Shown here: piece by piece, positions 2,545 through 39,968 of the stretch | Numbering within the stretch: position 1 is the first letter of the stretch | How the letters are laid out: every line of letters starts with the position of its first letter | Assembly (NCBI RefSeq): GCF_014652875.1 | Contig: NZ_BMZQ01000007.1 | Span: forward strand, 1-64,000 | Origin: Tianweitania populi | GTDB lineage: Bacteria > Pseudomonadota > Alphaproteobacteria > Rhizobiales > Rhizobiaceae | Reading direction: 5' to 3' | Length of the DNA: 64,000 nt | Position numbers and translations under genes: made by a program | Notes under the pieces: model-generated | Seen by the model: only the letters and a program-made list of their open reading frames with translations | Told to the model about the DNA's origin: nothing | Database searches by the model: none

Positions 2545-3590
2545 CGGCGGATCCTGTACTGGGTGAAGAAAACGGCCACGAGCATGGTCAGCAAGGACAA
2601 AGCGACAATCACGTCGGCGATGTAGCTGGGAATGCCGAGGCTGCGGCTCATTCCATCCGCGCCGACGAACATGGTGGCGGTGAACAAGGCCGCCAGCACG
2701 ACGCCAAGCGGATTGAGATTGGCCAGCATGGCGACGACGATGCCGGAATAGCCGAAGCCGGGCGACAGTTCGGTGGTCACATAACCCTGCACGCCCATGA
2801 CCTCGACGGCGCCGGCGAGCCCGGCGAGACCGCCGGAAATGCAGGCGACGATGACGAGGGTGCGCCCGAGCGGCACGCCGGCAAAGACCGCGCCTTCCGG
2901 GTTGAGACCGGCCGCACGCGATTGCATTCCGAAGACGGTGCGCGATTGCACGAAGGCAAGCACGAAGGCCAGAGCAACGGCGATCCCCAGGCCTAGGTGA
3001 AGGCGTGAGCGGGCCAAGAGTTTCGGCAGCATGGCGGCATCGGCGACCGGTTGCGACTGCGGCCAGCCGAAGGCCATTGGGTCCTTGAGGACGGTGTCGA
3101 TCAGCATGGAGACGAAGAGCACCGCAACGAAGTTGAGGAGCAGGGTTGTCACCACCTCATCAACGGTGAAGCGCAGCCGCATCCACAGCGGCACCAGAAG
3201 AAGGATCATGCCGGCCAGCGCGCCAAGGAAGAGCAGCAAGGGGATCTGAACGATACCCGGCAGATCGCCCAATAACTGCGAACTGGCCCAGGCGACGGTG
3301 ATGGCGCCGAGGTAGAGTTGTCCCTCCGCGCCGATGTTCCAAAGCCGCGCCCGGAACGCCACCGCCGCGGCAAGGCCGGTCAGGATCAAGGGGGTGGCGC
3401 GGGTCAGCGTTTCCGTTGCGGAGAGACGCGAGCCGAAAGCGCTTTTCAGGATCAGCCAATAGGCCTCAAGCACCGGAGCGCCTACGATGGCAATCAGGAT
3501 GCCTGCCAGAACTAGCGCCGCCGCTATCGCGATCAGGGGTGTGGCGATCACGAGTGCAATCGGACGGTGTTCACGCCGCTCAAACCGCAT
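2541..3590 (-). CDS. ABC transporter permease, BMP/nucleoside type (first subunit)
   Basis: A 349-residue permease with an N-terminal membrane anchor at about residues 14-36. A family motif, ATPLILTGLAAAVAFRA, is followed by NIGAEGQLYLGA. It resembles YufP/NupP, the larger of the two permeases of BMP-type nucleoside importers. Its start overlaps the end of the ATPase gene by 11 bp and its stop overlaps the next permease by 4 bp. This tight packing supports one transcript. Substrate identity cannot be read from the permease alone. Confidence 0.88.
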   Translation of the reverse strand: MRFERREHRPIALVIATPLIAIAAALVLAGILIAIVGAPVLEAYWLILKSAFGSRLSATETLTRATPLILTGLAAAVAFRARLWNIGAEGQLYLGAITVAWASSQLLGDLPGIVQIPLLLFLGALAGMILLLVPLWMRLRFTVDEVVTTLLLNFVAVLFVSMLIDTVLKDPMAFGWPQSQPVADAAMLPKLLARSRLHLGLGIAVALAFVLAFVQSRTVFGMQSRAAGLNPEGAVFAGVPLGRTLVIVACISGGLAGLAGAVEVMGVQGYVTTELSPGFGYSGIVVAMLANLNPLGVVLAALFTATMFVGADGMSRSLGIPSYIADVIVALSLLTMLVAVFFTQYRIRR

Positions 3591-5106: not shown

Positions 5107-6504
5107 TCAATTTGCCACGGGGAAGCGGTGCTGCCAGCGCTCCTCTTGCTCTAGACGTGCAGCAAGCGCAAGCAGGAGCAGGTCACGACCCATGGGTGCC
5201 ATGATATGAAGGGGCAGCGGCAGGCCGTTCGCATCGGCGCCGAAGGGTAGGGTGATCGCCGGGAAACCCGTTATGTTGGCGAGTGCTGCAAGCGGCGCAA
5301 ACGCGGTCATGCGCTCGATCTGCAAGGCGGTGTCATCATGGTCGAACGGGAAGGAGCCAAGCGGAAGCGGCGCGCTCGACAGCATCGGCGTGAGGAGGCA
5401 GTCGACATCCTCGAAGATGTCCCACAGCGCGCGGCTGGCTTGGATGCCGGCGTCGAGCGAGGCCCACAGTGCCTGGCCGGATAGCGTCTGACCCCTGCGG
5501 ATGAAAGCGCGCGTGAGACGCTCGGCTTTCTTAGCATCAAGCTCTGCCGCATCGACATAGTTGGCGAGATTGACGGCGATTATGTCGCCGAGCGCCGTGC
5601 CGCTTGCGGAGACGGCTTTCTCGACTTTGCTCCAGGCGACCGGAACAAGGGTGTAACCATCGGCTTCGAGTGATGTTGCCGCAGCTTCGATCGTAGCGGC
5701 GCGCTCGGGATCGATGGGGAAGGTGGTACCATAGTCGGTGAGCACACCGATGCGCAGCGCGCCTGTCTGTGCCGCATGTAGATGCGGATCGGCAAAGGGT
5801 CCGCGCGCCGCGCCGCTGGCAAGATGGAAGATGGTGCTGAGGTCGCGAACCGAGCGGCAAAGAGCAAGCTCGCTGACGATGCCGCCGAGGTGATTGTTGA
5901 AGCCTGGCCCGCCAGGCATCACGCCACGTGTGGCCTTCAGCCCCACAAGGCCGCAACAGGCCGCTGGAACGCGGATCGATCCGCCTGCATCGGTGGCATG
6001 GGCGATGGAAACGATGCCGGCGCAGACAGCGGCAGCCGCGCCGCCAGAAGAGCCGCCTGGGGTCAGAGCGAGATCAAGGGGATTGCGGCATCGGGGACCG
6101 GTTGCCGGCTCGCTTGAAAGCGACAAGCCCATTTCCGGCACGGTGGTGAGGCCGAAGAAGCAGAGACCTGCATTTTGAAGACGCGCGGCAAGATCGGAAT
6201 CGGACTGTGCCGATTGCCTGTCGAGCATGCCGGAGCCGGCTGCAACGGGAAGGCTGCTGAACGGTCCGCCAAGATCCTTGGCCAGACTGGGCACGCCGAG
6301 GAACGGCCGATCACCGGCAGCGTTCTTTGCAAGCAATGCATCGGCCGCCGTGGCTGCCTTCGATCCCAGCTCGTGGTCGAGGTGGACGATCGCGCCAAGA
6401 TCAGACCGCCGCTCAGCGGCAGCAAGAGCCGCTTGCATGGCTTCCATGGCACTGAGGCGACCCTCTCGGATCGCCTCAGCCAGTGACGTGGCATCATCCT
6501 TCAT
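5107..6504 (-). CDS. Amidase (amidase signature family)
   Basis: The chosen start gives 465 residues. The frame is open further upstream, but those codons overlap the binding-protein gene and look unlike the family. The Ser-cisSer-Lys triad is visible: K76 in SLAKDLGG, S152 in TPGGSSGG, and S176 in DAGGSIRVP. The glycine/serine-rich signature runs from about 147 to 190. Such enzymes hydrolyse amides or carbamates in the cytoplasm. Its place between the binding protein and the ATPase of the importer suggests it acts on the imported compound, possibly together with the deaminase-like enzyme. The substrate is unknown. Confidence 0.88.
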   Translation of the reverse strand: MKDDATSLAEAIREGRLSAMEAMQAALAAAERRSDLGAIVHLDHELGSKAATAADALLAKNAAGDRPFLGVPSLAKDLGGPFSSLPVAAGSGMLDRQSAQSDSDLAARLQNAGLCFFGLTTVPEMGLSLSSEPATGPRCRNPLDLALTPGGSSGGAAAAVCAGIVSIAHATDAGGSIRVPAACCGLVGLKATRGVMPGGPGFNNHLGGIVSELALCRSVRDLSTIFHLASGAARGPFADPHLHAAQTGALRIGVLTDYGTTFPIDPERAATIEAAATSLEADGYTLVPVAWSKVEKAVSASGTALGDIIAVNLANYVDAAELDAKKAERLTRAFIRRGQTLSGQALWASLDAGIQASRALWDIFEDVDCLLTPMLSSAPLPLGSFPFDHDDTALQIERMTAFAPLAALANITGFPAITLPFGADANGLPLPLHIMAPMGRDLLLLALAARLEQEERWQHRFPVAN

Positions 6505-6514
6505 CGCGAGCGCG

Positions 6515-7501
6515 TTATTTCGGCTCGTCCATGATCCTTGGCACTTCGAACGTGCCGGCCTTGATCTCGGCGCGCTTGGCTTCCATCGCTGCTTCCGCTT
6601 CGGCGGATGCAACACCCTTTACGAACACGATGTCGCTGCCGCCTTCCTTCATCAGGCCATAGGCGGTGTAGTCGCGGCCAACCGGCTTGCCGGCTGAAAC
6701 GTCGGCGATGGCCGCATTGAGCACAGGGCGGAAGCCCCACAGCGCGTTGGCGAAAACGGTATCGGGATAGCGTGGCGTGTAATCGATGAGGGAGCCGACC
6801 GCCTTGATGCCACGCTCCTTGGCAGCGTCGGCCGTACCGATGCGCTCACCGAACAGAATGTCCGCGCCGGCTTCGATCTGAGCCAGCCCAGCTTCGCGCG
6901 CTTTCGGCGGATCGAAGAAGGTGCCGATGAAGGTGACGAGATGCTTGGCCTCCGGGTTCACCGCCTTCACGCCTTCACCGAAGGCGTTGATCAGCATGTT
7001 CACTTCCGGGATCGGCATGGCGCCGACCGAGCCAACCACATTGGTCTTCGTCATCTTGCCGGCCAGCATGCCTGCGAGATAGGCGCCGTCGAAGTTCCAG
7101 GTGCCGAACACGCCGAAATTGTCGCCGGCTTCCTTGCCGCTCGAACCCATGACGAAGGCCGTCTCAGGATAATCGGCAGCTACCTGACGCGCCTGCTTCT
7201 CGACCGGGAAGGTTTCGCCGATGATCAGCTTTGCGCCCTGTTCTGCGTATTCGCTCATGGCGCGCGAATAGTCGGGCCCTGACACGCCTTCAGAGAAGAC
7301 GTACTCGATTGCGCCCTCGGCTGCCGCCTCTTGCAGCGCCTTGTGCAGCACGGAGTTCCAGGCGTTCTCTACCGGTGAGCCGTGAATGCCGGCGACCTTG
7401 ATCGGTGCAGCAGCGCGAGCGGACGGGATCCAGGCGGATGCGCCGAGTGCCAGGCCGGAGGCGAGCACCCCGCGCCGAGACATAAGGATCTTGCTAGACA
7501 T
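6515..7501 (-). CDS. BMP-family solute-binding protein of an ABC importer
   Basis: A 328-residue periplasmic lipoprotein/PnrA-like binding protein. The start at 7501 is preferred over the longer frame because a GGGGAA ribosome site lies just upstream and the protein then begins with a twin-arginine-like leader (SRRGVLASG, hydrophobic stretch, ARA-A cleavage). No lipobox cysteine is seen. Family features include the early GIHGSP segment, the GVFGTWNFDGAYLAGMLAG block and ADILFGERIGTADAAK. BMP proteins of this class usually bind purine nucleosides. It is the first gene of the six-gene operon and has a convincing promoter upstream. Confidence 0.9.
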   Translation of the reverse strand: MSSKILMSRRGVLASGLALGASAWIPSARAAAPIKVAGIHGSPVENAWNSVLHKALQEAAAEGAIEYVFSEGVSGPDYSRAMSEYAEQGAKLIIGETFPVEKQARQVAADYPETAFVMGSSGKEAGDNFGVFGTWNFDGAYLAGMLAGKMTKTNVVGSVGAMPIPEVNMLINAFGEGVKAVNPEAKHLVTFIGTFFDPPKAREAGLAQIEAGADILFGERIGTADAAKERGIKAVGSLIDYTPRYPDTVFANALWGFRPVLNAAIADVSAGKPVGRDYTAYGLMKEGGSDIVFVKGVASAEAEAAMEAKRAEIKAGTFEVPRIMDEPK

Positions 7502-7531
7502 GGTTTGTTCCCCAGCATGGTTTTGCTGAGA

Positions 7532-7560
7532 TCGATAGATAGAGCCTATAATGAAGTCAA
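7532..7560 (-). promoter_or_regulatory. Candidate sigma-70 promoter of the BMP-ABC/amidase/deaminase operon
   Basis: Read on the minus strand, TTGACT (7560-7555) is followed after exactly 17 bp by TATCGA (7537-7532). Transcription would start about 20-25 bp before the binding-protein start codon at 7501. The surrounding DNA is clearly more AT-rich than the genes. Both the hexamers and the spacing are read directly; use in the cell is inferred. Confidence 0.5.
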
Positions 7561-7570
7561 GGATGTGCAA

Positions 7571-7587
7571 TGCTTATCAATTAAGCA
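7571..7587. promoter_or_regulatory. 17-bp palindrome, candidate operator for the minus-strand operon
   Basis: TGCTTA, a 5-bp centre TCAAT, and TAAGCA form perfect 6-bp arms. The site lies directly upstream of the predicted -35 element of the BMP operon, where an activator would usually bind. No regulator gene for that operon is in the window, so the binding protein is unknown. Confidence 0.4.
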
Positions 7588-7688
7588 ACTCACAGCTGAT
7601 GTTGATCGGGAATTTGGCAGAGCAGATTAATATAATCGGTCAATTGCCAACTGCTAAACCTGACGCGCGCCGCTCTGACTCACTGCGG

Positions 7689-7701
7689 TCCACAATGTGG
7701 A
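7689..7701. promoter_or_regulatory. 13-bp perfect palindrome, candidate operator of the TRAP operon
   Basis: TCCACA-A-TGTGGA has perfect 6-bp arms around one base. It lies about 200 bp before the TRAP transporter gene and on the TRAP side of the divergent intergenic region. The IclR-type regulator at 11713 in that operon is the natural candidate to bind it, but this is inference from position only. Confidence 0.4.
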
Positions 7702-7904
7702 TCTTAGAGACTGCAGAAATGCTATTGAAATCAATACCTTAAGAATTCTCCTTGCAACCTGTTTGCGGAAGCGATCTGTATTTTGGACTGATTGCAGCTG
7801 TGAGGACGGCTGAAATCACGACTATGTCGCACTGGGAGGAGCGGCTGGGATTGAAGGGCATTTTGCGCCTGATCTCCGCCGATCGACGACAGGGGAGGAT
7901 GATC

Positions 7905-9776
7905 ATGAGTACAGCCGCAGTTCCGGCAACGGACGAGTTCACCGTTCCGTCCGAGTCGCTGGAAGCCACGCCCGGCTCCGCTTTCATGCGGCCGATCGAG
8001 GCGATCGCGGCAGTGCTGCTGATTGCGATCATCGGCATGCTTCTGACCGGTGTTGTGTCTCGCTACTTCTTCAATCGGCCAATCGTGTGGGTCGATGAAG
8101 CCTCCTCCATCGCCTTTCTTTGGCTGGCCATGCTCGGCACCGCAATCGCGGCGGATCGCAGCGAGCATCTGCGGCTCACCTTGTTCCTGTCGCGTATGCA
8201 GGAACGGCGGCGCGAATTCGTCGAGACCTTCGGCGTTGTGCTGATGGGCACATTCCTGATCGTTCTCCTGCCGCATGCCTATGAATATGCGGTGGGCGAA
8301 ATGGACATCACGTCGTCCGCCCTCAACATTCCCGTTGGCTACCGCGTTTCGGCGATCGCTGTTGGCATGGCGCTGATGCTGGGCTTGTTGCTGGTGCGGC
8401 TTTTCCGTACGTCCCGGCTGGTCGACGTGCTGGCGTCAGCCGCCATCGTCATCGCGATCTGCGCCGTTCTGTGGTTCCTGTCGCCGACGCTGAAAGGTCT
8501 GGGCGACGCCAACATCGTGATCTTCCTCGTGGGCGGTGCTGCACTCTGCCTGGCGCTCGGCGTACCGATCGCCTTCTGTTTCGGCATCGCGACGCTGCTG
8601 TTCCTGTCGTTTACGACGTCGATGCCGCTGGTTGTCATGGTGAGCCGGATCGATGAAGGCATGTCGAGCCTGATCCTCCTATCCGTGCCGGTCTTCGTGC
8701 TGCTTGGCTGCATTCTGGATGCGACCGGCATGGGCAAGGCGATCGTCGATTTTCTGGCGTCACTGCTTGGCCATGTGAAGGCTGGCATGTCTTATGTGCT
8801 GCTCGGCTCGCTGTTCCTAGTGTCCGGTATTTCCGGCTCGAAAGTGTCCGACATGGCGACCGTCGCGCCGGCTTTGTTTCCGGAGATGAAGCGGCGGGGC
8901 CACAAGCCGAGCGAGATGATCGCGCTGCTGGCGACAGGTGCCGCGATGGCTGATACTGTGCCGCCTTCGATCGTGCTGATCGTGCTGGGTTCGGTTGCCG
9001 GCGTGTCGATTGCGGCGCTCTTCACCAGCGGGTTCGCGATCGCCATGGTGCTGCTGATCGCGCTGGCGATTTTGGCCCGCTTCAAGGCCCGGCATGAAAG
9101 CATGGACGGCATCAAGCGCGCCTCGGGAAAGACCATCCTGAAGGTGGCGCTGCTTGCAGCACCCGCTCTTGTTCTGCCTTTCATCATCCGCAGTGCGGTG
9201 GCCAGCGGTGCTGCGACGGCGACGGAAGTTTCGACCATCGCCGTGCTCTATGCCTTCGTGATCGGCATGGTCCTCTACGGCGGAATTTCGCCGCGTCGCA
9301 TCTACAGCATGCTGGTGGAAACCGCTGCGATGTCGGGCGCGATCCTGCTGATACTGGGAACCGCGGCTGCTATGGCCTGGGCGCTGACGCAGACCGGCTT
9401 TGCTTTCCATCTGCGTGACGCGATGAGCAACCTGCCGGGCGGCTGGTTCACCTTCATGCTGCTGTCGATCGGCCTCTTCATGCTGCTGGGCTGCGTGCTG
9501 GAAGGCCTGCCGGCAATCGTGCTGCTGGCGCCCATCATGTTCCCGATCGCCCGCGCGCTGGGCATCAATGACATCCATTACTCGATGGTGATCGTGACCG
9601 CGATGAATATCGGCCTGATGGCGCCGCCGATCGGCGTTGGCTTCTATATCGCCTGCAAGGTCGGCAATGTGTCACCCGACGAAGCGATGGTAGCGATCTG
9701 GCCCTATATCGGCGCGCTGGTTCTCGGGCTGCTGGCAATCGCTGCCGTACCCTGGTTCTCGCTCGCCTTCCTGTAA
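7905..9776 (+). CDS. TRAP transporter, fused small and large membrane subunits (DctQM)
   Basis: A 623-residue fusion. Residues about 25-190 form the four-helix DctQ part, and residues about 215-623 form the DctM part with many hydrophobic segments. DctM signatures include LLSVPVFVLLGCILDATGMG, the GSKVSDMATVAPAL segment, and the C-terminal MAPPIGVGFYIA. The start at 7905 is chosen because GGGGAGG lies 6 bp upstream; an ATG at 7899 is too close to that site. TRAP systems use ion gradients to import organic acids bound by a periplasmic protein, here encoded 56 bp downstream. The cargo is probably a carboxylate, since CoA-ligase and thiolase genes follow. Confidence 0.9.
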   Translation: MSTAAVPATDEFTVPSESLEATPGSAFMRPIEAIAAVLLIAIIGMLLTGVVSRYFFNRPIVWVDEASSIAFLWLAMLGTAIAADRSEHLRLTLFLSRMQERRREFVETFGVVLMGTFLIVLLPHAYEYAVGEMDITSSALNIPVGYRVSAIAVGMALMLGLLLVRLFRTSRLVDVLASAAIVIAICAVLWFLSPTLKGLGDANIVIFLVGGAALCLALGVPIAFCFGIATLLFLSFTTSMPLVVMVSRIDEGMSSLILLSVPVFVLLGCILDATGMGKAIVDFLASLLGHVKAGMSYVLLGSLFLVSGISGSKVSDMATVAPALFPEMKRRGHKPSEMIALLATGAAMADTVPPSIVLIVLGSVAGVSIAALFTSGFAIAMVLLIALAILARFKARHESMDGIKRASGKTILKVALLAAPALVLPFIIRSAVASGAATATEVSTIAVLYAFVIGMVLYGGISPRRIYSMLVETAAMSGAILLILGTAAAMAWALTQTGFAFHLRDAMSNLPGGWFTFMLLSIGLFMLLGCVLEGLPAIVLLAPIMFPIARALGINDIHYSMVIVTAMNIGLMAPPIGVGFYIACKVGNVSPDEAMVAIWPYIGALVLGLLAIAAVPWFSLAFL

Positions 9777-29687: not shown

Positions 29688-29743
29688 CGCCGATTGCAGT
29701 GGCCCTTGCCGCCTGCGCCGAAACATGATCTACACCGCGTCAA

Positions 29744-29836
29744 CCACAGGGGTGCTCCGTATAGCCGGGGCTGAGACCGCAGCGTCATGTTGCGAAACCC
29801 TCAAGCTGATCTGGATAATTCCAGCGGAGCGAGGCG
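29744..29836 (+). ncRNA. TPP riboswitch (THI element)
   Basis: The conserved THI-box pieces are in order: GGGGTGC near 29750, GGGGCTGAGACC near 29767, AACCCT near 29797, and then AGCTGATCTGGATAAT with CCAGCG at 29804-29825. The 3' end runs into GAGG (29831-29834), which is also the best ribosome site for the ykoF start at 29841. Ligand binding would therefore hide the ribosome site and reduce translation, the usual mode in Gram-negative bacteria. It controls the five-gene operon that follows. Limits are approximate by a few bases. Confidence 0.92.
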
Positions 29837-29840
29837 GATC

Positions 29841-30449
29841 ATGTTTTCTGGCGCACAAATTTCCTTGTATCCGATGGCGGACGAATTCGTTCGCATCATC
29901 CTGGGCAGCCTGTCGGCGCTCGATCCCTATCGCGAGCGGTTCAGGATCGAGACGGACGACATCTCCACCTTGCTGGTCGGACCGCCGGAAGAGCTGTTTC
30001 CGGCCATGCGCGATCTGCATGTCGCGGCATCGCGCAACGGCGTTCACTGCGTGCTGCACGCTACCGTCTCGCGCGGATGCCCCGGTGAGCCGGATGATCC
30101 GATCTGCACGCCGATTCAGGGACGTACGTCCGATACGCCGCTTGCACAGCGGATCACGGATGCGCTGAAGGCGGCACAAGGCGCGGAGCCGACCGGGCAG
30201 ATCGTTGCGGCACAGCTGTCGCTTTATCCGCTCGGTGCCGGACACCACATGGATGAGATCTATGGCTGCATCGACTTCCTGAAGCAGTCAGGCGTGTTCG
30301 GAAAATCCAAGAACTTCTGCACGACCTTGCGTGGCGATGCGGGGCCGGTTTTTGCCACGCTGGGCGAAGCCTTTCTGCGTTTTGGCTCGCCTGAAGGTCA
30401 TCTCGCGCTTGATCTCACCGTTTCGGCAAACAGCCCGACTTCCGCCTGA
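29841..30449 (+). CDS. ykoF: YkoF-like thiamine/HMP-binding protein
   Basis: A 202-residue cytoplasmic protein made of two ferredoxin-like repeats. The repeats begin with GAQISLYPMADEF (about 3-15) and AAQLSLYPLG (about 115-125). The second continues with the family segment YGCIDFLKQSGV. YkoF binds thiamine or its pyrimidine moiety HMP and is usually encoded with an HMP ABC importer. The start at 29841 is set by the GAGG inside the riboswitch end. Its position right after the TPP riboswitch confirms the thiamine link. Confidence 0.88.
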   Translation: MFSGAQISLYPMADEFVRIILGSLSALDPYRERFRIETDDISTLLVGPPEELFPAMRDLHVAASRNGVHCVLHATVSRGCPGEPDDPICTPIQGRTSDTPLAQRITDALKAAQGAEPTGQIVAAQLSLYPLGAGHHMDEIYGCIDFLKQSGVFGKSKNFCTTLRGDAGPVFATLGEAFLRFGSPEGHLALDLTVSANSPTSA

Positions 30450-30471
30450 TCGCTTTTTCAGCAGCCTCATC

Positions 30472-31251
30472 ATGTCTGAAAAAGCATCCTTCATGGCCCG
30501 AACGGGTCCGGCTGCCTTGGCCATTGCCGGGCTTCTATTGGCTTGGCAGCTTTATGCCGACCTTTCCGGCATCAGCGCGACGACCTTGCCATCGCCGACC
30601 CGCGTGGCTCAGCAGGCTTGGATCCAGCGGCAGGCGCTGTTCGATAATGCCGTGCCAACGGTCCGGGCGACCGTGCTGGGCTTCGGCTGTTCGCTGACGA
30701 CGGCCTTTCTCTTGTCGATCCTGATGGACTTTTCTCGACCGCTGCGACGTGCTTTGTTTCCGGTCTTCATTGTCAGCCAGACCCTGCCGTTGGTCGCGAT
30801 TGCGCCACTGGTGGTGCTTTGGTTCGGCTTCGGATTGGTGCCGAAGATCATGCTGGTGGCGCTGGTGACGTTCTTTCCGATGCTGGTGGCTCTGGTGCAG
30901 GGCTATGAGGCCACGGAGAAGGAAATTGTGCAGCTGCTGCATTCGATGGGGGCGAGCCGTTGGCGGACCTTTTGGCTGGCGCGACTGCCTTCGGCGCTGC
31001 CCTTCTTCTTTGCAGGACTGAGAATTTCAATTACTTACGCCGTGGTTGGCGCGATCTTTGCGGAGTATGCAGGCGCGGCCAAAGGGTTGGGGATCTATAT
31101 CCTCAACGCGAAGAACAATTTTCGGCCGGATCTCGTGCTTGCGGCGGTGGGTGTCAGTGCGACGCTGACGCTGGTTCTGTTTGGAATCACGGTACTTGTT
31201 CAAAGGCTTGCGATGCCTTGGCTGCGGTTCGAGCAGGAGCCGTCGCGGTGA
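30472..31251 (+). CDS. ABC transporter permease, thiamine-precursor (ThiX-like)
   Basis: A 259-residue permease of the nitrate/taurine/HMP type. The start at 30472 (MSEKASFM) gives a normal membrane topology with six hydrophobic segments. The EAA loop is present as EKEIVQLLHSMGASRWRTFWLARLP (quoted range about 150-172, key residues E, G and P). Overlap with the ATPase gene is 4 bp. With the THI5-like binding protein and the TPP riboswitch, the set probably imports HMP or another thiamine precursor. Confidence 0.9.
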   Translation: MSEKASFMARTGPAALAIAGLLLAWQLYADLSGISATTLPSPTRVAQQAWIQRQALFDNAVPTVRATVLGFGCSLTTAFLLSILMDFSRPLRRALFPVFIVSQTLPLVAIAPLVVLWFGFGLVPKIMLVALVTFFPMLVALVQGYEATEKEIVQLLHSMGASRWRTFWLARLPSALPFFFAGLRISITYAVVGAIFAEYAGAAKGLGIYILNAKNNFRPDLVLAAVGVSATLTLVLFGITVLVQRLAMPWLRFEQEPSR

Positions 31252-32021
31252 GTGCGGTACGGCTTCAGCTGGAGGATGTCCGCAAGAGTTTCGGCCAGAC
31301 CGAGGTGCTGGATGGTGTCTCGCTGCATGTTCAGGAAGGCGAATTCGTTTCCATCCTCGGGCCTTCTGGAGCCGGCAAGTCGACGATATTTCGGCTGCTT
31401 ACCGGCGCAGAACGGGCGGATGGCGGCGCAATTCACATGAATGGCGCGCCACTTGAGGGCCGAAACCGCAATATGGCGTTCATGCCGCAACGCGACGCGC
31501 TGATGCCGTGGCGGAGCATACTGGACAACGTGACTCTCGGCCTCGAAGTGCAAGGCATGACTCGGAAAGCGGCCCGCGCGAAGGTCACACCTCTGCTCGC
31601 CGAGTTCGGGCTGGCGGGGTTCGAAAACCATTATCCTGCGCAGCTGTCCGGCGGCATGCGACAGCGGGCGGCGCTTCTACGTACGGTTGTGCAGGAGCGC
31701 AACATGCTGCTGTTGGACGAACCCTTCGGGGCGCTGGATGCACTGACGCGCACGAGCATGCAGCGCTGGCTCGAGGTGATGTGGAAGCGGCATCGGTGGA
31801 CGGCTTTGCTCATTACGCATGATGTGCGCGAAGCCGTGTTTTTGTCGGACCGCATCTATGTCCTGTCGGCGCGACCGGCGCGGGTGCTGCACGAGTTCCA
31901 TGTTCCGCTGCCGCGCCCACGCGATGGGTCGGCGCGCGGACTTCAGGAGGCCAGCGCCATCGAGGCGGCTGTGCTGGATACGCTTTTGATCCGCGAACAG
32001 GCTGGAGGGCCTCATTCATGA
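31248..32021 (+). CDS. ABC transporter ATP-binding protein, thiamine-precursor (ThiZ-like)
   Basis: A 257-residue ATPase with GTG start overlapping the permease stop. Walker A reads GPSGAGKST (about 39-47), the Q-loop is in AFMPQRDALMPW, the signature is LSGGMRQRAA, and Walker B is MLLLDEPFGALDA with the switch H in LLITHDV. This matches the nitrate/taurine/HMP group. The frame is open upstream of 31248 but runs through permease-coding DNA, so the longer version is rejected. Confidence 0.92.
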   Translation: MSAVRLQLEDVRKSFGQTEVLDGVSLHVQEGEFVSILGPSGAGKSTIFRLLTGAERADGGAIHMNGAPLEGRNRNMAFMPQRDALMPWRSILDNVTLGLEVQGMTRKAARAKVTPLLAEFGLAGFENHYPAQLSGGMRQRAALLRTVVQERNMLLLDEPFGALDALTRTSMQRWLEVMWKRHRWTALLITHDVREAVFLSDRIYVLSARPARVLHEFHVPLPRPRDGSARGLQEASAIEAAVLDTLLIREQAGGPHS

Positions 32022-33034
32022 CCATCATCAACCGCCGCAATACGCTTCTGCTGGGACTTGCCACGGGTGCAGCCTGGGCATTGCCGGCGAGGGCCCAGAC
32101 TAAGACGAAGGTCAGGGTCGCGCTGGATTGGACCCCCAACACCAACCACATCGGACTTTATGTCGCCCGCGAGAAGGGCTTCTATGCGCAGGCCGGGCTG
32201 GACGTTGAAATCCTGCCCTATGGCGACACGAGCGCCGGCGCGCTGATCAGCAACGGCGTGGCTGACTTCGGCGTCTCGGGCGCGATCGGCTTCTTCACGC
32301 AGCGGGCTGCAGGCGCCGACCTGAAGGCGGTTTATGCCGTCGTTCAGACCGAAACCGGACGTCTCGTTTTCAATGATGACCGGCAGGACATCCAGCGTCC
32401 ACGCGATCTCGACGGGAAAACCTATGGCGGGTTCGGGAGCAACTGGGAAAACGCGCTGATCAGCACGATCATCCGCAATGATGGCGGCAAGGGCACGTTC
32501 GAGACGGTGACACTCGGCACTTCGGCCTATGAGGCGCTTGCCAATGGCGCGGTCGATTTCACGCTCGAAGTCTATACGTGGGAGGGCGTGAAGGCGGAGC
32601 TTGAAGGACGCAAGCAGCGGGCGTTCCGCTATGCCGACTTCGGCGTGCCCGACCAGCATACGACGTTTCTTGCCTCCAGCGATGCGACTCTCAAGGCCAA
32701 GCCGGAGGCTGCCAAAGCGTTCGTTCAGGCAACGCAGCGCGGCTATGCTTTTGCGGTCGAGAACAGCGAGGAAGCAGCCGCGATCCTGGTTGAAGCGAAC
32801 AAGGACATGCTGACCGATCCGGCGCTGATCACGGCCTCGCTGAAAGCCCTGGTGGACGGGCACTATTTGGCGCGTCCGGATGGAACGGTCGGCGAGATTG
32901 ATGCTGCCAAGACGAATGCGATGGGTGCATTCCTGTTCTCGTCCGGCATTCTGCGCGATGGGAATGGAGAGCCATTAAAGGCGCAGCCGGACTTCGCGGA
33001 CTATTACACCAACGCGTTTCATGCCGGTGCCTGA
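32018..33034 (+). CDS. ABC transporter solute-binding protein, NMT1/THI5-like (ThiY-like)
   Basis: A 338-residue periplasmic protein. The leader has INRRNTLLLGLATG and ends PARAQ. The mature start VRVALDWTPNTNHIGLYVA and the following EKGFYAQAGLDVEILPYG are the hallmark of NMT1/THI5-like proteins, which bind HMP or formylaminopyrimidine. VVQTETGRLVF and GFGSNWENALI mark the ligand lobe. It completes the importer encoded by the two previous genes; overlap with the ATPase gene is 4 bp. Confidence 0.92.
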   Translation: MTIINRRNTLLLGLATGAAWALPARAQTKTKVRVALDWTPNTNHIGLYVAREKGFYAQAGLDVEILPYGDTSAGALISNGVADFGVSGAIGFFTQRAAGADLKAVYAVVQTETGRLVFNDDRQDIQRPRDLDGKTYGGFGSNWENALISTIIRNDGGKGTFETVTLGTSAYEALANGAVDFTLEVYTWEGVKAELEGRKQRAFRYADFGVPDQHTTFLASSDATLKAKPEAAKAFVQATQRGYAFAVENSEEAAAILVEANKDMLTDPALITASLKALVDGHYLARPDGTVGEIDAAKTNAMGAFLFSSGILRDGNGEPLKAQPDFADYYTNAFHAGA

Positions 33035-33053
33035 CTTGGCTCCCCGGAGGCGG

Positions 33054-34295
33054 ATGCGGCTGAATGCGGTTCTTTATGGGCTGGGCGCTCATGAAGCAGC
33101 GTGGCGAATGCCGGAAAGCGATCCGCGTGCGGTGACCAAGCTGCCCTTCTGGGTCGATGTCGCGCAACGCGCCGAAGCGGCCGGTTTCGACGGGCTGTTT
33201 CTGGGCGACGTGCTCACCCTGCAGGCCGGGGCGGACAAGCATCTGTCGGACGCGATGGACCCGATCGTGATCATGTCGGCGCTGGCCGCCGTGACCAGTC
33301 GCATCGGTCTGATCGCCACGGCGTCAACGAGCTTCGATCATCCGTTCCATCTTGCCCGGCGCTTTGCCTGTCTCGACCACATCAGCGGCGGCAGGGCAGG
33401 GTGGAACATCGTGACCTCGTCCAATGCATTGGAAGCTCGCAACTTCGGCCTCGATGCGATGCCCGACCATGCCGAGCGCTATGCCCGCGCCGCCGATGCC
33501 GTGGACGCCTGTTTGGCGCTATGGGACAGCTGGGATGCCGATGCCAAGATCGCGGATCAGCAAAGCGGGCAGTATCTCGACCCGGCCAAGATCCGGCGCG
33601 TCGATCATCAAGGGCCATATGTGCGCACCGCCGGGCCGCTCAACGTACCGCGTCCGCCAAAGGGGCGGCCGGTGCTGGCACAGGCCGGGTCATCGGAAGC
33701 AGGCCGCGCTTTTGCGGCGGCGCGGGCGGATATTGTCTTCACCGTCCAGTCCGGTCTGGCGGAGGCGCAGGCATTCTACCGGGACATGAAGGCGCGCGCG
33801 GTGCAGGCTGGGCGTAATCCAAGCGAACTTTGCATTATGCCCGGCATCGTACCGATTGCGGCTGCCACGAAAGATGAGGCCGAGGCGCGGCTCGCTGAGT
33901 TGAACAGCTTTGCCGTGCTGGATCATCTGATCGCCAAGGGTTCCGAATTTCTTGCGACCGATCTGAGCAAGCTGGATCTGGATGCACCTTTGCCGAGAGG
34001 CTTGATCGACCAGGCTGGTAATCAGGCGAGTCAGAGCCGCGTCGCCGTTCTGGTCGGGATCGCCGAGCGCGAGAAGCTGACGGTGCGCCAGTTGCTGGCA
34101 AGGCTGGCGAGCGGACGCGGGCATTTGCTGGCGGTTGGAACCGGCGCCGAGATTGCCGATGTCATGGAGGAATGGCTGGATGCCGGGGCGGCGGATGGTT
34201 TCAACGTGATGTGCCCGGTTCTGCCGGGAGACATTCAACGCTTTGCCGACTACGTGATGCCGGTGTTGCGCGAACGCGGCCTCACACCTTCCTGA
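33054..34295 (+). CDS. Bacterial luciferase-like flavin-dependent monooxygenase (NtaA/SnaA/DszA family)
   Basis: A 413-residue TIM-barrel oxygenase. It begins MRLNAVLYGLGAHEAAWR, as typical family members do. Further family blocks are DGLFLGDVL, TSRIGLIATASTSFDHPFHLAR, the SGGRAGWNIVTSSN block, DHAERYARAADAV, and GRPVLAQAGSSEAGRAFAA. These enzymes use reduced FMN and oxygen to attack chelators, sulfur heterocycles or pyrimidines. An upstream ATG at 33021 is possible, but 33054 has a GGAGG site. Being last in a TPP-riboswitch operon is unusual. It may open or trim a thiamine-related heterocycle; that is inference. Confidence 0.88.
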   Translation: MRLNAVLYGLGAHEAAWRMPESDPRAVTKLPFWVDVAQRAEAAGFDGLFLGDVLTLQAGADKHLSDAMDPIVIMSALAAVTSRIGLIATASTSFDHPFHLARRFACLDHISGGRAGWNIVTSSNALEARNFGLDAMPDHAERYARAADAVDACLALWDSWDADAKIADQQSGQYLDPAKIRRVDHQGPYVRTAGPLNVPRPPKGRPVLAQAGSSEAGRAFAAARADIVFTVQSGLAEAQAFYRDMKARAVQAGRNPSELCIMPGIVPIAAATKDEAEARLAELNSFAVLDHLIAKGSEFLATDLSKLDLDAPLPRGLIDQAGNQASQSRVAVLVGIAEREKLTVRQLLARLASGRGHLLAVGTGAEIADVMEEWLDAGAADGFNVMCPVLPGDIQRFADYVMPVLRERGLTPS

Positions 34296-35794: not shown

Positions 35795-37207
35795 GTGAAC
35801 GGCAGCAAACTTCTTCGCGTTCTTGGCGCACTCGTCGTGCTTGTTCTGCTGGGAATAGGCGGTTTCATCGCCTATGCCTGGGAACGAGAGATACCGGCGG
35901 CCGAGCCACCCGCAGTGTCGAGCATTGATCCTGAACTTGTTCAGCGCGGAGCCACGCTTGCGGCGGTCGGCAACTGCAATGTCTGCCACACCAAGGAAGG
36001 CGGCGAGGTCTTTGCAGGAGGCTTGGCGCTGCCGACGCCGTTCGGCACGATCTATTCCACCAACATCACGCCCGATCCTGAGACCGGCATTGGCCGCTGG
36101 TCGGAAGAAGCGTTCCAACGGTCCATGCGCAGCGGTGTCGATCGCGAGGGACGGCATCTTTATCCTGCCTTCCCGTTCGACCACTTCACCAAGGTGACCG
36201 ACGAGGACAATCGCGCGCTTTATGCTTACCTGATGACGCGCAAGCCGGTGAAGGCGGAGGCGCAGGCCAACGATCTTCCGTTCCCGCTGAACATCCGCCT
36301 CGCGGTAGCCGGCTGGAAGCTACTGTTCTTCCGCGAAGGTGTTTATCAGCCCGACACGGCGCAGAGCGACGAGTGGAACCGCGGCCATTATCTGGCTGAT
36401 GGTCTTGGCCATTGCGGCGCGTGTCATACGCCGCGCAACAGTCTTGGCGCGGAAAAGAAGGACCAGCTGTTTGCCGGCGGCGAAGCCGAAGGCTGGACGG
36501 CCTATGCGCTCAACCAGAACTCGCCGGCGCCTTTGCCGTGGGATGTTGACGCGCTGACCCATTACCTCGCCAATGGCTGGGAAGAGCATCACGGCGTGGC
36601 ACGCGGCCCGATGGCGCCGGTGACCGCCAACATGATGTCGGTGCCAGAAAGCGATGCGCGGGCAATCGCCACCTATGTGACCTCGGTGATGGGTGAGCCG
36701 ACCCCCGAACGTCAGGCACGGGCGGATAAGGTGCGCGATCAAGCGACGCGCCACCCGCCGGGCATCCAGGTGCAGGCGGCCGGTGGGCAGACGGTGCCGG
36801 TTGCGGCAACCAGCCAGGATCGCGGCGCGCTGATCTATGCGGCGGCCTGTTCCAGCTGCCATGATGCCGGGCGTCCCGTGCCTTATGGCGGTCTGCCGCT
36901 GGCGCTGAGCACCGCGACCTACGGGCCGACGCCACTCAATCCAATCAATGTCATTCTTTACGGCCTTCCGGCACCAGAAGGCGAGCGCGGACCGATCATG
37001 CCGGGCTTTGCCGGTGTGCTGGACGACGCCCAAACGGCCGATCTGCTCGCCTATATCCGGGCGACCTTCAGCGACAAGCCGGCCTGGGACGATGTTCAGG
37101 ATCTCGTCCGGCAGGTTCGCTCAGGCAAAGAACACACGGATCTGCAATCGCTGTCCAGCGGCGGTTCCGCTCCAGCCAATCCAACCCGGCGGGAAACATC
37201 ATGGTAG
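35795..37207 (+). CDS. Membrane-anchored tri-haem cytochrome c subunit
   Basis: A 470-residue protein with a GTG start, one N-terminal membrane segment (about 8-27), and three haem c sites: C61-C64-H65, C207-C210-H211 and C352-C355-H356. This matches the cytochrome subunits of membrane-bound alcohol and aldehyde dehydrogenases. It precedes the 2Fe-2S and molybdopterin subunits and overlaps the next gene by 7 bp. It should pass electrons from the periplasmic molybdenum enzyme to quinone or a terminal oxidase. Confidence 0.92.
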   Translation: MNGSKLLRVLGALVVLVLLGIGGFIAYAWEREIPAAEPPAVSSIDPELVQRGATLAAVGNCNVCHTKEGGEVFAGGLALPTPFGTIYSTNITPDPETGIGRWSEEAFQRSMRSGVDREGRHLYPAFPFDHFTKVTDEDNRALYAYLMTRKPVKAEAQANDLPFPLNIRLAVAGWKLLFFREGVYQPDTAQSDEWNRGHYLADGLGHCGACHTPRNSLGAEKKDQLFAGGEAEGWTAYALNQNSPAPLPWDVDALTHYLANGWEEHHGVARGPMAPVTANMMSVPESDARAIATYVTSVMGEPTPERQARADKVRDQATRHPPGIQVQAAGGQTVPVAATSQDRGALIYAAACSSCHDAGRPVPYGGLPLALSTATYGPTPLNPINVILYGLPAPEGERGPIMPGFAGVLDDAQTADLLAYIRATFSDKPAWDDVQDLVRQVRSGKEHTDLQSLSSGGSAPANPTRRETSW

Positions 37208-37704
37208 CCCTGACGGTGAATGGCCAATCGCACCAGATCGAGGCCGATCCGGATACGCCCCTGCTTTATGTGCTGCGTGACGAACTTCATCTGCATGGCG
37301 CGAAATATGGCTGCGGTCTCGGCCAGTGTGGCTCCTGCACGGTGATGGTGGATGGCCAGGCGGTGTTTTCCTGCGTCACGCCGGTGCTGCTGCTGGAAGG
37401 GCGCGAGATCACGACCGTTGAAGGGCTGGGTACGATCGAAAGCCCCGGCCCGATGCAACAGGCCTTTATCGAGGAACAGGCGGCGCAATGCGGCTACTGC
37501 ATTCCCGGCATGATGATGCGGGCTCAGGCCTTGTTACAGCGGAACCCCGGTGCCTCGGACGAGGAGATCGTGGCGCATATGGAGCCTAATCTCTGTCGCT
37601 GCGGCACACATATGCGCATTCTCGCCGCCATCAAACGTGCTGGCGGCTTGATGCAAATGGCAGCGGGCGGATCAACCACGGACACCGCGAAGAGGGCAGG
37701 CTGA
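37201..37704 (+). CDS. Two-[2Fe-2S] subunit of a molybdenum hydroxylase (IorA-like)
   Basis: A 167-residue protein with a plant-type ferredoxin site (C38, C43, C46 and C58) and a second helical cluster site (C97, C100, C132 and C134). The pattern KYGCGLGQCGSC and QCGYCIPGM is typical of xanthine-oxidase-family small subunits such as isoquinoline 1-oxidoreductase alpha. It carries electrons from the molybdenum site to the tri-haem cytochrome. The last 18 residues are a variable tail. It overlaps the large-subunit gene by 1 bp. Confidence 0.92.
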   Translation: MVALTVNGQSHQIEADPDTPLLYVLRDELHLHGAKYGCGLGQCGSCTVMVDGQAVFSCVTPVLLLEGREITTVEGLGTIESPGPMQQAFIEEQAAQCGYCIPGMMMRAQALLQRNPGASDEEIVAHMEPNLCRCGTHMRILAAIKRAGGLMQMAAGGSTTDTAKRAG

Positions 37705-39968
37705 TGAAACACGTCTCCGTTCCCGATGTCTCGCGCCGCTCGGTTCTGTTCGGCACCGGCTCGCTGGTTCTCGCCTTCTCGCTGCGCCCGGCGTTCGCGC
37801 AGACTACCGTGCAGGGGAGCGAGGCTCAGAACTTCCAGCAGGTGGAACAGGCGGCACCCGATCTGCCGGGCAGCCTCAAAACCAATCCGCAGCTGGATTC
37901 CTGGATCCGCATCGATGCCGATGGAAGTGCCACGGTGTTCACCGGCAAGTCGGAACTGGGACAGGGGATCAAGACGGCCGTTCTGCAGATCGCGGCGGAA
38001 GAGCTGAAAGTGCCGTTCGCGAGCCTGAAGCTGATCGGGCCGGATACGAGCCTCAGCCCGAATGAAGGCTACACGGCCGGCAGTCACTCCGTTCAGGACA
38101 GCGGCACGGCGATCCGCCATGCGGCTGCGCAGGTTCGCGAAATCCTGATCGCGCAGGCGGCAGGACGGTTCAATGTGGCGGCTGACAGCCTCAAGGCCGA
38201 AGGTGGTGCGGTGATCGCGCCGGACGGTCGCCGTGCGACCTATGGTGAGTTGGTCTCGGCCGAATTGATCCAAGTTCAAGCACAGCCGACATCCAAGCTG
38301 ACGCCAACCGAGGCGTTCACGGTGATGGGCAAGCCGCAGAAGCGCATCGACATTCCCGGCAAGGTCACCGGTGCGCCGGCTTATGTGCAGGACATGAGGC
38401 CAGACGGCATGGTGCATGGCCGCGTGGTGCGTCCGCCGAGCCCCGGTGCGCGGCTGCGCGGCGTGGATGCAAGCTCTGTCGAAGGCATGCCGGGTGTGCT
38501 GAAGGTGGTGCAGGACGGCAGCTTCCTCGGCGTTCTGGCCGAAAAGGAATGGGTCGCCATCAAGGCGATGCGCACCCTATCCCCGCTCGCGCAATGGGAC
38601 GAAAGCCCGACCTTGCCGGGCATGGACGATCTGCCGCGCAAGCTGATGGCGCTGCCACAGGAAGACGGCATCGTGACCGACGATCGCAAGGTCGTGAGCG
38701 CGACCGCGACGCATGAGGCGACCTTTACCAAGCCGTACCAGATGCACGGTTCGATCGGCCCATCCTGCGCGCTTGCCGTGCTGAACGACGGCGTGACGAC
38801 GGTGTGGACGCATACGCAGGGCGTTTATCCCGACCAGAAGGCGATTTCGCAGATGCTGCGCATGCCGATCGAGCAGGTGCGGGTGATCCATGCCGAGGGT
38901 TCCGGCTGCTACGGCCACAATGCCGCCGACGACGCCGCAGCCGATGCGGCATTGCTGGCGCAGGCTTTGCCGGGCCGGCCGGTGCGCCTGCAATGGATGC
39001 GCGAGCAGGAACATGCCTGGGAGCCGTATTCGCCGGGCATGGTCACCAAGGTTCGTGCTAGCACGGACGCGAACGGCAATGTCGTGGACTGGACCTATGA
39101 GGTCTGGAGCAACAGCCACAATTCGCGGCCGGGCCCCGCCGGCAATCTTCTGCCCGCCCGCCACATCGCCAATGGTTTCCAGCCGGAACCGGCGAAGCTG
39201 CAGATCACGCCGGAAGGAAATGGCGACCGCAATTCCAATCCGCTTTACGCCTTCCCGAGCCGGCATGTCGTTTGGCACTTCCTGAAGGAAGCGCCCCTGC
39301 GCGTTTCGGCGCTGCGCGGCCTTGGCGCTTACATGAATGTCTTCACCATCGAGAACACGATGGATGATCTGGCCGCTGCGGCGAAGGCCGATCCGGTCGA
39401 ATACCGGCTGCGCCATCTTCAGGACGAGCGCGCGCGTGACGTGGTGACGAAGGCGGCCGAGATGTTCGGCTGGAAGGCGGGACAGACGGCACCACAGAAC
39501 CACGGCTATGGCTTTGCTTTTGCCCGCTACAAGAACCTCGCTGCCTATTGCGCGGTCGCGATGGAGGTCAAGGTCGAGCCTGAAACCGGCCGCGTCCGTA
39601 TCTTGCGGGTATCAAGTGCAGCGGATGCGGGCGAGATCGTCAACCCGGACGGCATCGCCAATCAGGTACAGGGCGGCATCGTGCAGTCTGCGAGCTGGAC
39701 ACTGTATGAAGGCGTGACCTTCAACGATACGCGCATCACCAGCGTCGACTGGTCGACCTATCCGATCATGCGCTTCGATGCTCTGCCGCCGAAGATCGAC
39801 GTCGAGGTCATTCCGCGTCCGGGCACGCCGTTCCTGGGAGCGGGCGAGTGCAGCCAAGGGCCGGGCGGATCGGCTTTGGCGAATGCCATCACCAATGCGA
39901 TCGGCCGGCGCATCTTCGACCTGCCGCTCAGCCGCGAGAAGATCCGTCAGGCGGCCGGGCAGGTTTGA
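37704..39968 (+). CDS. Molybdopterin-binding large subunit (IorB/aldehyde oxidase-like)
   Basis: A 754-residue protein with a twin-arginine leader (DVSRRSVLFGTG, hydrophobic run, AFAQ), so the complex works in the periplasm. Family blocks include GKSELGQGIKTAVLQIAAEEL, the GSHSVQDSG region, and GRVVRPPSPGARL. The general base is E715 in LGAGECSQGPGG, the usual GxGE site. It lacks the FAD subunit of xanthine oxidases and uses the cytochrome instead. Known relatives oxidise aldehydes or N-heterocycles. Substrate unassigned. Confidence 0.9.
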   Translation: MKHVSVPDVSRRSVLFGTGSLVLAFSLRPAFAQTTVQGSEAQNFQQVEQAAPDLPGSLKTNPQLDSWIRIDADGSATVFTGKSELGQGIKTAVLQIAAEELKVPFASLKLIGPDTSLSPNEGYTAGSHSVQDSGTAIRHAAAQVREILIAQAAGRFNVAADSLKAEGGAVIAPDGRRATYGELVSAELIQVQAQPTSKLTPTEAFTVMGKPQKRIDIPGKVTGAPAYVQDMRPDGMVHGRVVRPPSPGARLRGVDASSVEGMPGVLKVVQDGSFLGVLAEKEWVAIKAMRTLSPLAQWDESPTLPGMDDLPRKLMALPQEDGIVTDDRKVVSATATHEATFTKPYQMHGSIGPSCALAVLNDGVTTVWTHTQGVYPDQKAISQMLRMPIEQVRVIHAEGSGCYGHNAADDAAADAALLAQALPGRPVRLQWMREQEHAWEPYSPGMVTKVRASTDANGNVVDWTYEVWSNSHNSRPGPAGNLLPARHIANGFQPEPAKLQITPEGNGDRNSNPLYAFPSRHVVWHFLKEAPLRVSALRGLGAYMNVFTIENTMDDLAAAAKADPVEYRLRHLQDERARDVVTKAAEMFGWKAGQTAPQNHGYGFAFARYKNLAAYCAVAMEVKVEPETGRVRILRVSSAADAGEIVNPDGIANQVQGGIVQSASWTLYEGVTFNDTRITSVDWSTYPIMRFDALPPKIDVEVIPRPGTPFLGAGECSQGPGGSALANAITNAIGRRIFDLPLSREKIRQAAGQV

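Follow-up and report, generated by a model that had tools for sequence, protein, structure and literature searches.

The window analysed here is a 64,000-nt stretch of the genome of Tianweitania populi (contig NZ_BMZQ01000007.1, positions 1 to 64,000), and it contains a compact operon that consists of a TPP riboswitch followed by ykoF, the genes for a permease, an ATPase and a ThiY-like periplasmic binding protein (SBP), and the gene for a luciferase-like FMN monooxygenase (LLM). In positions of the window, the features are:

29738..29850, + strand: TPP riboswitch aptamer (THI element, RF00059), covariance model score 57.5 bits (gathering threshold 54.3)
29831..29843, + strand: presumed ykoF ribosome-binding site, with GAGG at 29831-29834, 6 nt before the ATG at 29841
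29841..30449, + strand: ykoF, thiamine/HMP-binding family, 202 aa (PF07615, 1.2e-29; PDB 1s99, 8.4e-23, residues 3-200)
30472..31251, + strand: ABC permease, ThiX-like (PF00528, 3e-30)
31248..32021, + strand: ABC ATPase, ThiZ-like, with a GTG start at 31248 (PF00005, 3.4e-30)
32018..33034, + strand: SBP of the NMT1/THI5 (ThiY) family (PF09084, 3.5e-59)
33054..34295, + strand: LLM of the NtaA/DmoA family (TIGR03860), in a reading frame open from an ATG at 33021

The operon genes overlap or stand at most 22 nt apart. The ykoF-permease gap measures 22 nt, the permease-ATPase and ATPase-SBP junctions are 4-nt overlaps, and the SBP-LLM junction is either a 14-nt overlap, if LLM starts at 33021, or a 19-nt gap, if it starts at the ATG 33054. 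The latter start is likelier; a GGAGG ends 3 nt upstream of it, and the protein begins with MRLNAVLYGLG. This spacing, together with the covariance and domain matches, confirms the tightly packed arrangement, from a complete THI element to the monooxygenase, that a preliminary description of this DNA had reported, and the start of the aptamer, placed there at 29744, is corrected to 29738. The terminator search of the window yielded 7 terminator-like sites on both strands (4.6 expected); the 6 sites of the + strand all lie within coding sequence, and none lies at the SBP-LLM junction. In addition, the second of the two families compared has 16 places with LLM, and in 14 of them a start codon in the LLM frame overlaps with the stop of the SBP gene. 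A separate transcript for LLM, a possibility raised in the preliminary description, was rejected on these two grounds.

The aptamer matches the model over its full length (positions 1-105 of 105), and it is the sole Rfam match above gathering threshold in the window and one of 4 TPP riboswitches in the host genome. Folded by free energy, the leader by itself does not stand out (z -0.66), and thus, the riboswitch call rests on the covariance model; a chance match was rejected because of the covariance score and the presence of the other copies. In the model alignment, helix P1 of the aptamer has its 3' strand at 29834-29838, which shares the last base of the GAGG and fills the spacer before the ykoF start, and TPP binding is predicted to close this ribosome-binding site.

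The SBP has 4nmy (1.3e-40) and 3ix1 (5.7e-24) as its closest PDB chains, the latter being an N-formyl-aminomethyl-pyrimidine binding protein. An NMT1/THI5 binding protein accompanied by a permease and an ATPase constitutes an importer, whose ligand, by homology to 3ix1, would be HMP or formyl-aminopyrimidine. LLM scores 498.7 bits against TIGR03860 (cut-off 279.7), in agreement with the earlier assignment of the last gene to the NtaA group of flavin monooxygenases, and stays below the cut-offs for RutA (TIGR03612, 76.3 vs 498.3), SsuD (TIGR03565, 61.5 vs 518.2) and SfnG (TIGR04021, 78.5 vs 382.95). Its nearest solved relative is YtnJ/MoxC (6ask; 3.8e-98, 332.7 bits), and the closest PDB relatives also include dibenzothiophene enzyme A and dimethyl-sulfide monooxygenase. 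C-S cleaving enzymes are among these relatives, and NtaA-type enzymes cleave C-N bonds too. LLM would accordingly be expected to perform an FMNH2-dependent oxygenation. The domain search found neither a flavin reductase nor a sulfur gene among the operon genes.

An order-wide search found orthologues in only 2 of 297 genomes, and therefore, the search was moved to two families. The best 80 of 177 relatives were kept in one search. Among 73 places with a ThiY orthologue, LLM is adjacent in 19, a count that includes L185 and L189, where its frame is broken, and missing from 53, the slot being hidden in one more (L208, which ends inside the SBP). LLM is also broken in L021 and L065, and a remnant persists in L184. 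On the SBP tree (70 rows; short, stop-containing or low-scoring rows dropped), its presence needs 11 changes. LLM is thus an accessory, optional member, since it is missing from 53 of the 73 orthologous places, and its candidacy as a core operon gene was rejected. Absence from orthologous TPP operons is one of the outcomes that the preliminary description had named as counting against its reading, and it is borne out in part. As for the gene order in relatives, the linkage to the riboswitch proposed in the preliminary description is recovered where LLM is present: a TPP riboswitch precedes 18 of the 20 assessable LLM orthologue places (leaving out the incomplete contigs L065, L151, L187 and L119, the last being the same as L022), and LLM lies behind a ThiY-type SBP in 19 of 21. 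The named-contig and genome sets overlap in species, and their counts were not summed; the 16 sequences from which model R1 was built match it by construction.

A Rhizobium genome and a genome of the Devosia family have each lost about 3 kb of ykoF-ABC, with different endpoints, and both deletions retain the riboswitch, a short ykoF leader and LLM; two Mesorhizobium loci show a further reduction of ykoF that keeps its start. As far as the sequences tell, LLM is no bystander in the TPP operon. In one relative (L165), TenA occupies the LLM slot. In L213, a TPP-driven LLM overlaps by 4 nt an MFS gene of the Bcr/CflA efflux type (TIGR00710, 212.8 bits, cut-off 200.9). At L008/L214, a kin locus without a TPP riboswitch, LLM is accompanied by a different SDR and a GST, the GST lying behind LLM in L008. 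Two LLM orthologues without TPP reside in ABC operons. In L020, LLM stands beside a gene resembling 3-mercaptopyruvate sulfurtransferases, which scores 138 bits where the cut-off is 250, and beside another NtaA-family LLM, which at 527.9 bits is over its cut-off. The neighbours in L195/L220 are a gene similar to the SfnB family, at 256 bits below the cut-off of 431, and more LLM-type frames, recognized by eye.

The LLM tree (83 of 85 rows, over 330 aa and without stops; L021 and L065 left out) supports the window clade at 100/100. A second TPP-linked clade, 42-47% identical, comprises Rhodococcus, Dietzia and Pseudochrobactrum, extending the linkage to another phylum. Of its 14 loci, 13 have a TPP riboswitch no more than 1 kb upstream, and 12 have an SDR immediately before LLM; upstream of other LLM loci, TPP was found in 0 of 49 at E<=0.01, a survey that took in eight 3-8 kb contigs where the riboswitch could be cut off. 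In a test of a common origin for the window and Rhodococcus clades, apart from other NtaA-type LLMs, the two group with L041 at 89/92, and constraining the 36 TPP-linked rows together was not rejected (p-AU 0.117). G51 in the motif FLGDV and other residues fixed in the window clade are rare outside it (A replaces G51 in 59 of 61 outside rows) and are not shared by the second clade, which may therefore have a different substrate. LLM is under purifying selection (dN/dS 0.05-0.11 in 7 pairs).

In Pseudochrobactrum-type genomes (G388, G460, G517), a TPP-ABC operon without LLM coexists with a separate TPP-SDR-LLM arrangement. The partner SDR belongs to the NF006393 family (over cut-off), whose members also end TPP-thiM-thiE-thiD operons in 4 of 8 rhizobial plasmid loci examined (out of 15 records matched) and follow thiE-thiD in one further genome. 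No LLM was found within the 10.75 kb covered at the rhizobial plasmid loci. In Rhizobium BK313, LLM (L010) lies away from the thiM-thiE-thiD operon under its own TPP riboswitch, and the SDR frame carries one TAG.

Reliance on thiamine or its degradation products is believed to be widespread among bacteria; ThiY, YlmB and TenA form the classical route for base-degraded thiamine, TenA being one of the known salvage enzymes. Genome searches found no thiC, thiG or tenA in the host, which is probably a thiamine auxotroph. Its genome has TPP-thiX-thiY-thiM-thiE-thiD and TPP-Nudix-thiD arrangements (thiE and thiD named by eye), the former followed by SsuA/SsuD-like frames, also recognized by eye. Among 62 genomes, thiC or a fragment occurs in 8, at most 12, and TenA in 16, the TenA contrast being weak (2/20 vs 14/42, p 0.065, kinship not corrected for). 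The TenA search gave no match in E. coli either.

We consider it highly probable that LLM acts in the TPP-regulated salvage of a thiamine moiety, as the preliminary description had supposed, given that the linkage recurs in the second clade and that two deletions keep only riboswitch, leader and LLM. There is good support for its regulation and its part in salvage, and for its reaction, we put forward, tentatively and with somewhat less than even confidence, an oxidative release at the pyrimidine methylene within a TPP-repressed salvage module. At low TPP, the aptamer would release the ribosome-binding site of ykoF, allowing translation of the coupled genes; YkoF and the ThiXYZ-type importer, judging from their families, would bring in thiamine-derived pyrimidines. 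LLM, with FMNH2 and O2, would then hydroxylate the C5-methylene of a substituted pyrimidine, possibly formyl-aminomethyl- or aminomethyl-pyrimidine or another adduct, and this hydroxylation would break a C-N (or C-S) bond and leave 5-formyl-pyrimidine. A reductase, the SDR where linked, would convert the aldehyde to HMP for use by ThiD and ThiE. In genomes without TenA, such a route would replace the work of TenA and YlmB. Searches of the window genome and of 40 second-family genomes found no NF006393 SDR, and thus, the host lacks a candidate for the reductase step.

A serious rival to this reading, on balance rather unlikely, is that LLM cleaves a C-S bond in a thiamine-related compound containing sulfur (a thiazole product, a pyrimidine sulfonate or a thioether), combining sulfur release with vitamin salvage. 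Sulfur chemistry is suggested because the TPP-free loci L020 and L195/L220 adjoin sulfurtransferase-like, SfnB-like and other LLM-type genes, and the sulfur-active PDB relatives and the SsuA/SsuD-like frames of the host point the same way. However, the orthologues lie predominantly behind TPP riboswitches and ThiY-type SBPs, the window operon has no sulfur gene, and the family also acts on C-N bonds. The MFS gene of L213 and the GST of L008 would suit the detoxification of a thiamine antimetabolite entering through the HMP importer, which we regard as improbable; there is only one locus of each kind, and the second-clade SDR, found elsewhere in thiMED operons, fits biosynthetic salvage better.

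Opening of an oxidised thiazole, the first example in the preliminary description, or its restoration is equally improbable and was not supported. ThiM belongs to the same host regulon and rhizobial thiM-thiE-thiD genes are followed by the SDR, but passages of one report (PMC5627462) state that YkoF binds the HMP moiety and that residues to anchor the thiazole are missing, 3ix1 ties ThiY-type proteins to the pyrimidine half as well, and TenA fills the LLM slot of one relative, a context that favours the pyrimidine side. That LLM is a passenger carried by operon position is very improbable: its patchy presence and its decay in several lineages would agree with it, whereas the deletions that remove the importer and spare LLM, the second-clade linkage set against its absence at other loci, and the purifying selection argue against it.

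Extending pyrimidine release by LLM to both clades gives a broader reading, which is possible and more doubtful: damaged B1 would be recycled oxidatively and independently of TenA in two phyla, by a TPP-repressed FMN monooxygenase and a TPP-repressed SDR, and riboswitches of one class would control partners that can replace one another (a pyrimidine importer, an SDR or an MFS gene). If true, a flavin oxygenase and a reductase under TPP control would add further thiamine salvage chemistry, two groups of genes whose present annotation goes no further than LLM oxidoreductase and 3-oxoacyl-ACP reductase would gain a testable role, and predictions of vitamin B1 dependence among bacteria would change; thanks to the two deletions, the link lends itself unusually well to testing. 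A 2002 study of the thiamine regulon reportedly named a TPP-regulated oxidoreductase. Within the portion of the literature covered by our searches, no description of the pairing of a TPP riboswitch with LLM was found, and the earlier statement that such a salvage route had not been described holds to the same extent.

Among known systems, the operon shares the TPP riboswitch, the YkoF family, the THI5/ThiY-family SBP, the permease and the ATPase with the YkoF/ThiXYZ-type salvage of HMP and formyl-aminopyrimidine (ThiY, YlmB, TenA), but no TenA was found in the window genome, and an FMN monooxygenase takes the last place of the operon. This monooxygenase is over the cut-off of the NtaA/DmoA family (YtnJ/MoxC, DszA, DmoA, the NTA and EDTA monooxygenases and riboflavin lyase), within which the window LLMs stand apart as their own clade, mostly behind TPP riboswitches and with clade-fixed residues. 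With the pyrimidine monooxygenase RutA, it has in common the luciferase-like family at the Pfam level, as a weak match far below the RutA cut-off. Finally, the rhizobial TPP-thiM-thiE-thiD operons, whose last gene in four plasmid loci belongs to the same SDR family as the partner of the second LLM clade, differ from the window operon in having no LLM within the 10.75 kb covered.

The operon of the window begins with a full-length TPP riboswitch (the sole Rfam match above gathering in the 64 kb). Downstream on that strand lie ykoF, the genes of a permease, an ATPase and a THI5/ThiY-type binding protein (SBP), and last that of a luciferase-like FMN monooxygenase of the NtaA/DmoA family (LLM). 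The covariance-model match and the family assignments thus bear out the preliminary description of a TPP riboswitch operon ending in a flavin monooxygenase. The genes are tightly packed, with intergenic gaps of at most 22 nt and several overlaps. The leader contains:

29738-29850, + strand: TPP riboswitch, 57.5 bits
29831-29834, + strand: GAGG
29834-29838, + strand: 3' strand of helix P1
29841, + strand: ATG of ykoF

Since the 3' strand of P1 overlaps the GAGG by the last base of this motif and fills the spacer to the ATG, TPP binding should close the ykoF ribosome-binding site. Downstream of the operon (35795-39968), a single run encodes an aldehyde/xanthine-type dehydrogenase (cytochrome c, 2Fe-2S and molybdopterin-binding subunits).

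LLM orthologues (E<=1e-120) were found in 2 of the 297 genomes searched for the order, in 17 of the 136 from a second family (Devosia and relatives) and in 5 of the 247 from the host's family. Two of these five (G322 and G418, with 47-48% identity) sit on a long branch, have no TPP riboswitch and were set aside, leaving 21 places in 20 genomes. The riboswitch lies upstream in 18 of the 20 assessable places (the one in G600 is a 3-kb contig), the exceptions being locus L195 of genome G551 and L214 of G647. A partly overlapping set of named contigs gave 15 of 17 assessable LLM loci with the riboswitch, L008 and L020 being without it.

An orthologue of the ThiY-type SBP (E<=1e-80) is encoded by 27 of the 247 host-family genomes and by 45 of the 136 in the second family; counting the window, there are 73 places in total. 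The riboswitch is present at 68 of the other 72; L119, L151 and L187 are truncated contigs, and L195 is genuinely without it. At four of the 68 (L167, L209-L211) it lies directly 5' of an SBP of about 50% identity, a different arrangement. The expectation that relatives share the gene order held in part: 19 of the 73 places have the LLM after the SBP, but it is missing in 53, and one contig (L208) stops within the SBP. On the SBP tree, the pattern of LLM presence takes 11 changes, of which supported branches force at least 6, compared with 19.4 for shuffled labels. Given this distribution, the LLM is an accessory gene, often gained or lost, whose position is constant in these loci. Its frame is broken in L021, L065, L185 and L189, and only a remnant is left in L184; dN/dS in 7 pairs of intact copies (0.05-0.11, some with dS near saturation) shows purifying selection. 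The last operon slot is occupied by TenA, a known salvage enzyme, in L165, and by a Nudix gene after the SBP of a TPP-ykoF-ABC operon in L193. One genome (G550; L183, L190) carries two complete TPP-ykoF-ABC-LLM operons.

Two genomes have lost the importer by deletion: Rhizobium sp. BK313 (L010) and, in the second family, G561 (L213). L213 aligns with the intact locus of its sister L007 over 4714-4927 and again over 7983-8354; for L010 against L017 the two matching stretches are 4687-4815 and 8001-8398. In both, about 3 kb are missing, with different endpoints. What is left is the riboswitch (55.6 bits in L213; 53.2 bits in L010, just below gathering, E 1.4e-7), a ykoF leader of 31 (L010) or 49 (L213) residues, and the LLM, the leader stop lying 2 nt before the LLM start codon or overlapping it. 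In L213 a Bcr/CflA-type MFS gene follows the LLM with a 4-nt overlap, and G561 also has a TPP-ykoF-ABC operon without LLM (L191). In two Mesorhizobium loci (L018, 5291-5398; L019, 5259-5375), ykoF has shrunk to 35 and 38 residues between riboswitch and permease, both ends being kept. The start of ykoF seems to be kept as a relay from the riboswitch to the downstream genes. Five further loci (L154, L156, L157, L160, L161), with no ykoF at E<=1e-8 and a riboswitch-permease interval too short for it, are perhaps also stubs.

As a control, 63 loci of other NtaA-type LLMs were scanned with the TPP model built in this analysis. Fourteen matched (E<=1.4e-5), exactly the 14 rows of one clade (support 100/100) that takes the TPP link into another phylum, its members coming from Rhodococcus (with Rhodococcoides), Dietzia, Kineococcus and Pseudochrobactrum; the remaining 49, about eight of them short contigs, gave no match at E<=0.01. 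In 13 of the 14, riboswitch and LLM are no more than about 1 kb apart, the match in L043 being 4.5 kb away and not above Rfam gathering; Rfam confirmed the riboswitch in 7 of 8 loci tested. Two LLMs further removed (L225 and L226, 47-48% to L072) lack it. The two TPP-linked clades group together with L041 (support 89/92; p-AU 0.117) and may or may not be one clade. Residues fixed in the window clade, e.g., G51 and V53, set it apart from nearly all 61 outside rows, the second clade among these, and thus the substrates of the two clades may differ.

In 12 of the 14 loci a reductase (SDR) lies directly 5' of the LLM; it scores above the NF006393 cut-off (434 and 426 bits vs 292), with 70% identity between Rhodococcus and Pseudochrobactrum. 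In Dietzia cinnamea the two genes are separate, each with its own TPP riboswitch (L078, L230). Adjoining the TPP-SDR gene of L230, a Guanidine-III riboswitch (3472-3538) lies 5' of a small multidrug-type transporter frame (by eye). Three Pseudochrobactrum-type genomes (G388, G460, G517) combine an LLM-less TPP importer operon with a separate TPP-SDR-LLM, which G384 also has. The SDR is present in 8 of 56 genomes and was not found in the window genome nor in 40 second-family genomes examined. Eight of 15 plasmid records with SDR were opened: four, all rhizobial, show TPP-thiM-thiE-thiD-SDR (one annotated so), which ties the SDR to core genes of thiamine salvage, two show TPP-SDR-LLM, and two, from Caballeronia, SDR without TPP. 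BK313 has an SDR frame with one internal TAG after thiE-thiD, and no TPP match was seen within 3.75 kb. In L008/L214 the LLM adjoins a different SDR (26% identity) and a GST, without TPP.

The host genome has four TPP riboswitches, that of the window operon and three others (thiB, thiD and thiE named by eye):

L001 1635-2123 and L215 (C6): riboswitch, then Nudix hydrolase gene and thiD
L216 2014-6018 (C3): riboswitch, then thiX-thiY-thiM-thiE-thiD
Fourth riboswitch: at thiB transporter genes

No ATPase frame was seen in the L216 run, whose transporter may share that of the window operon. After these thiamine genes (6225-8530), SsuA-type binding protein and SsuD-type monooxygenase-like frames stand behind a divergent ArsR-like frame (all by eye). 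The TPP-driven Nudix, to which the L193 gene is 62% identical over 125 residues, is possibly a thiamine-damage clean-up enzyme. Neither thiC, thiG nor tenA was found in the host genome at the limits used, and thus the host looks like a thiamine auxotroph living by salvage.

NtaA-family enzymes hydroxylate a carbon beside N or S, which breaks the bond and forms an aldehyde. The SBP is related to 3ix1, a formyl-aminomethyl-pyrimidine binding protein, and YkoF, according to PMC5627462, binds HMP, the pyrimidine half of thiamine, residues for the thiazole being apparently missing. In the simplest chain that we infer, a pyrimidine substituted at the C5-methylene would be taken up, the LLM would cleave the substituent off to give a 5-formyl-pyrimidine, and this would be reduced to HMP for ThiD and ThiE. 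Such an oxidative route would stand in for TenA, which occurs in 2 of 20 LLM-positive vs 14 of 42 LLM-negative genomes (p 0.065, or 0.033 with three G388-type genomes moved, neither kinship-corrected). The LLM substrate may instead contain sulfur, as suggested by C-S enzymes among the nearest solved relatives and by the neighbors of the ABC-LLM operons without TPP. Both of these, L020 (2461-9335) and L195/L220 (L220 10436-19598), adjoin further LLM-type genes, with a sulfurtransferase-like gene and a divergent YkoF near the former and an SfnB-like gene near the latter, and they are possibly a sulfur-acquisition version of the operon.

The literature searched holds no description of the oxygenase-importer combination under TPP control, and the main text of a survey from 2013 that covered 564 TPP sites (PMC3766115) does not mention monooxygenase, COG2141, luciferase or ykoF. 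A 2002 regulon study lies outside the literature covered, and thus part of the picture, the SDR above all, may already be in print. Every component belongs to a known family, and we read the system as a probable TPP-regulated salvage of thiamine moieties with an oxygenase.
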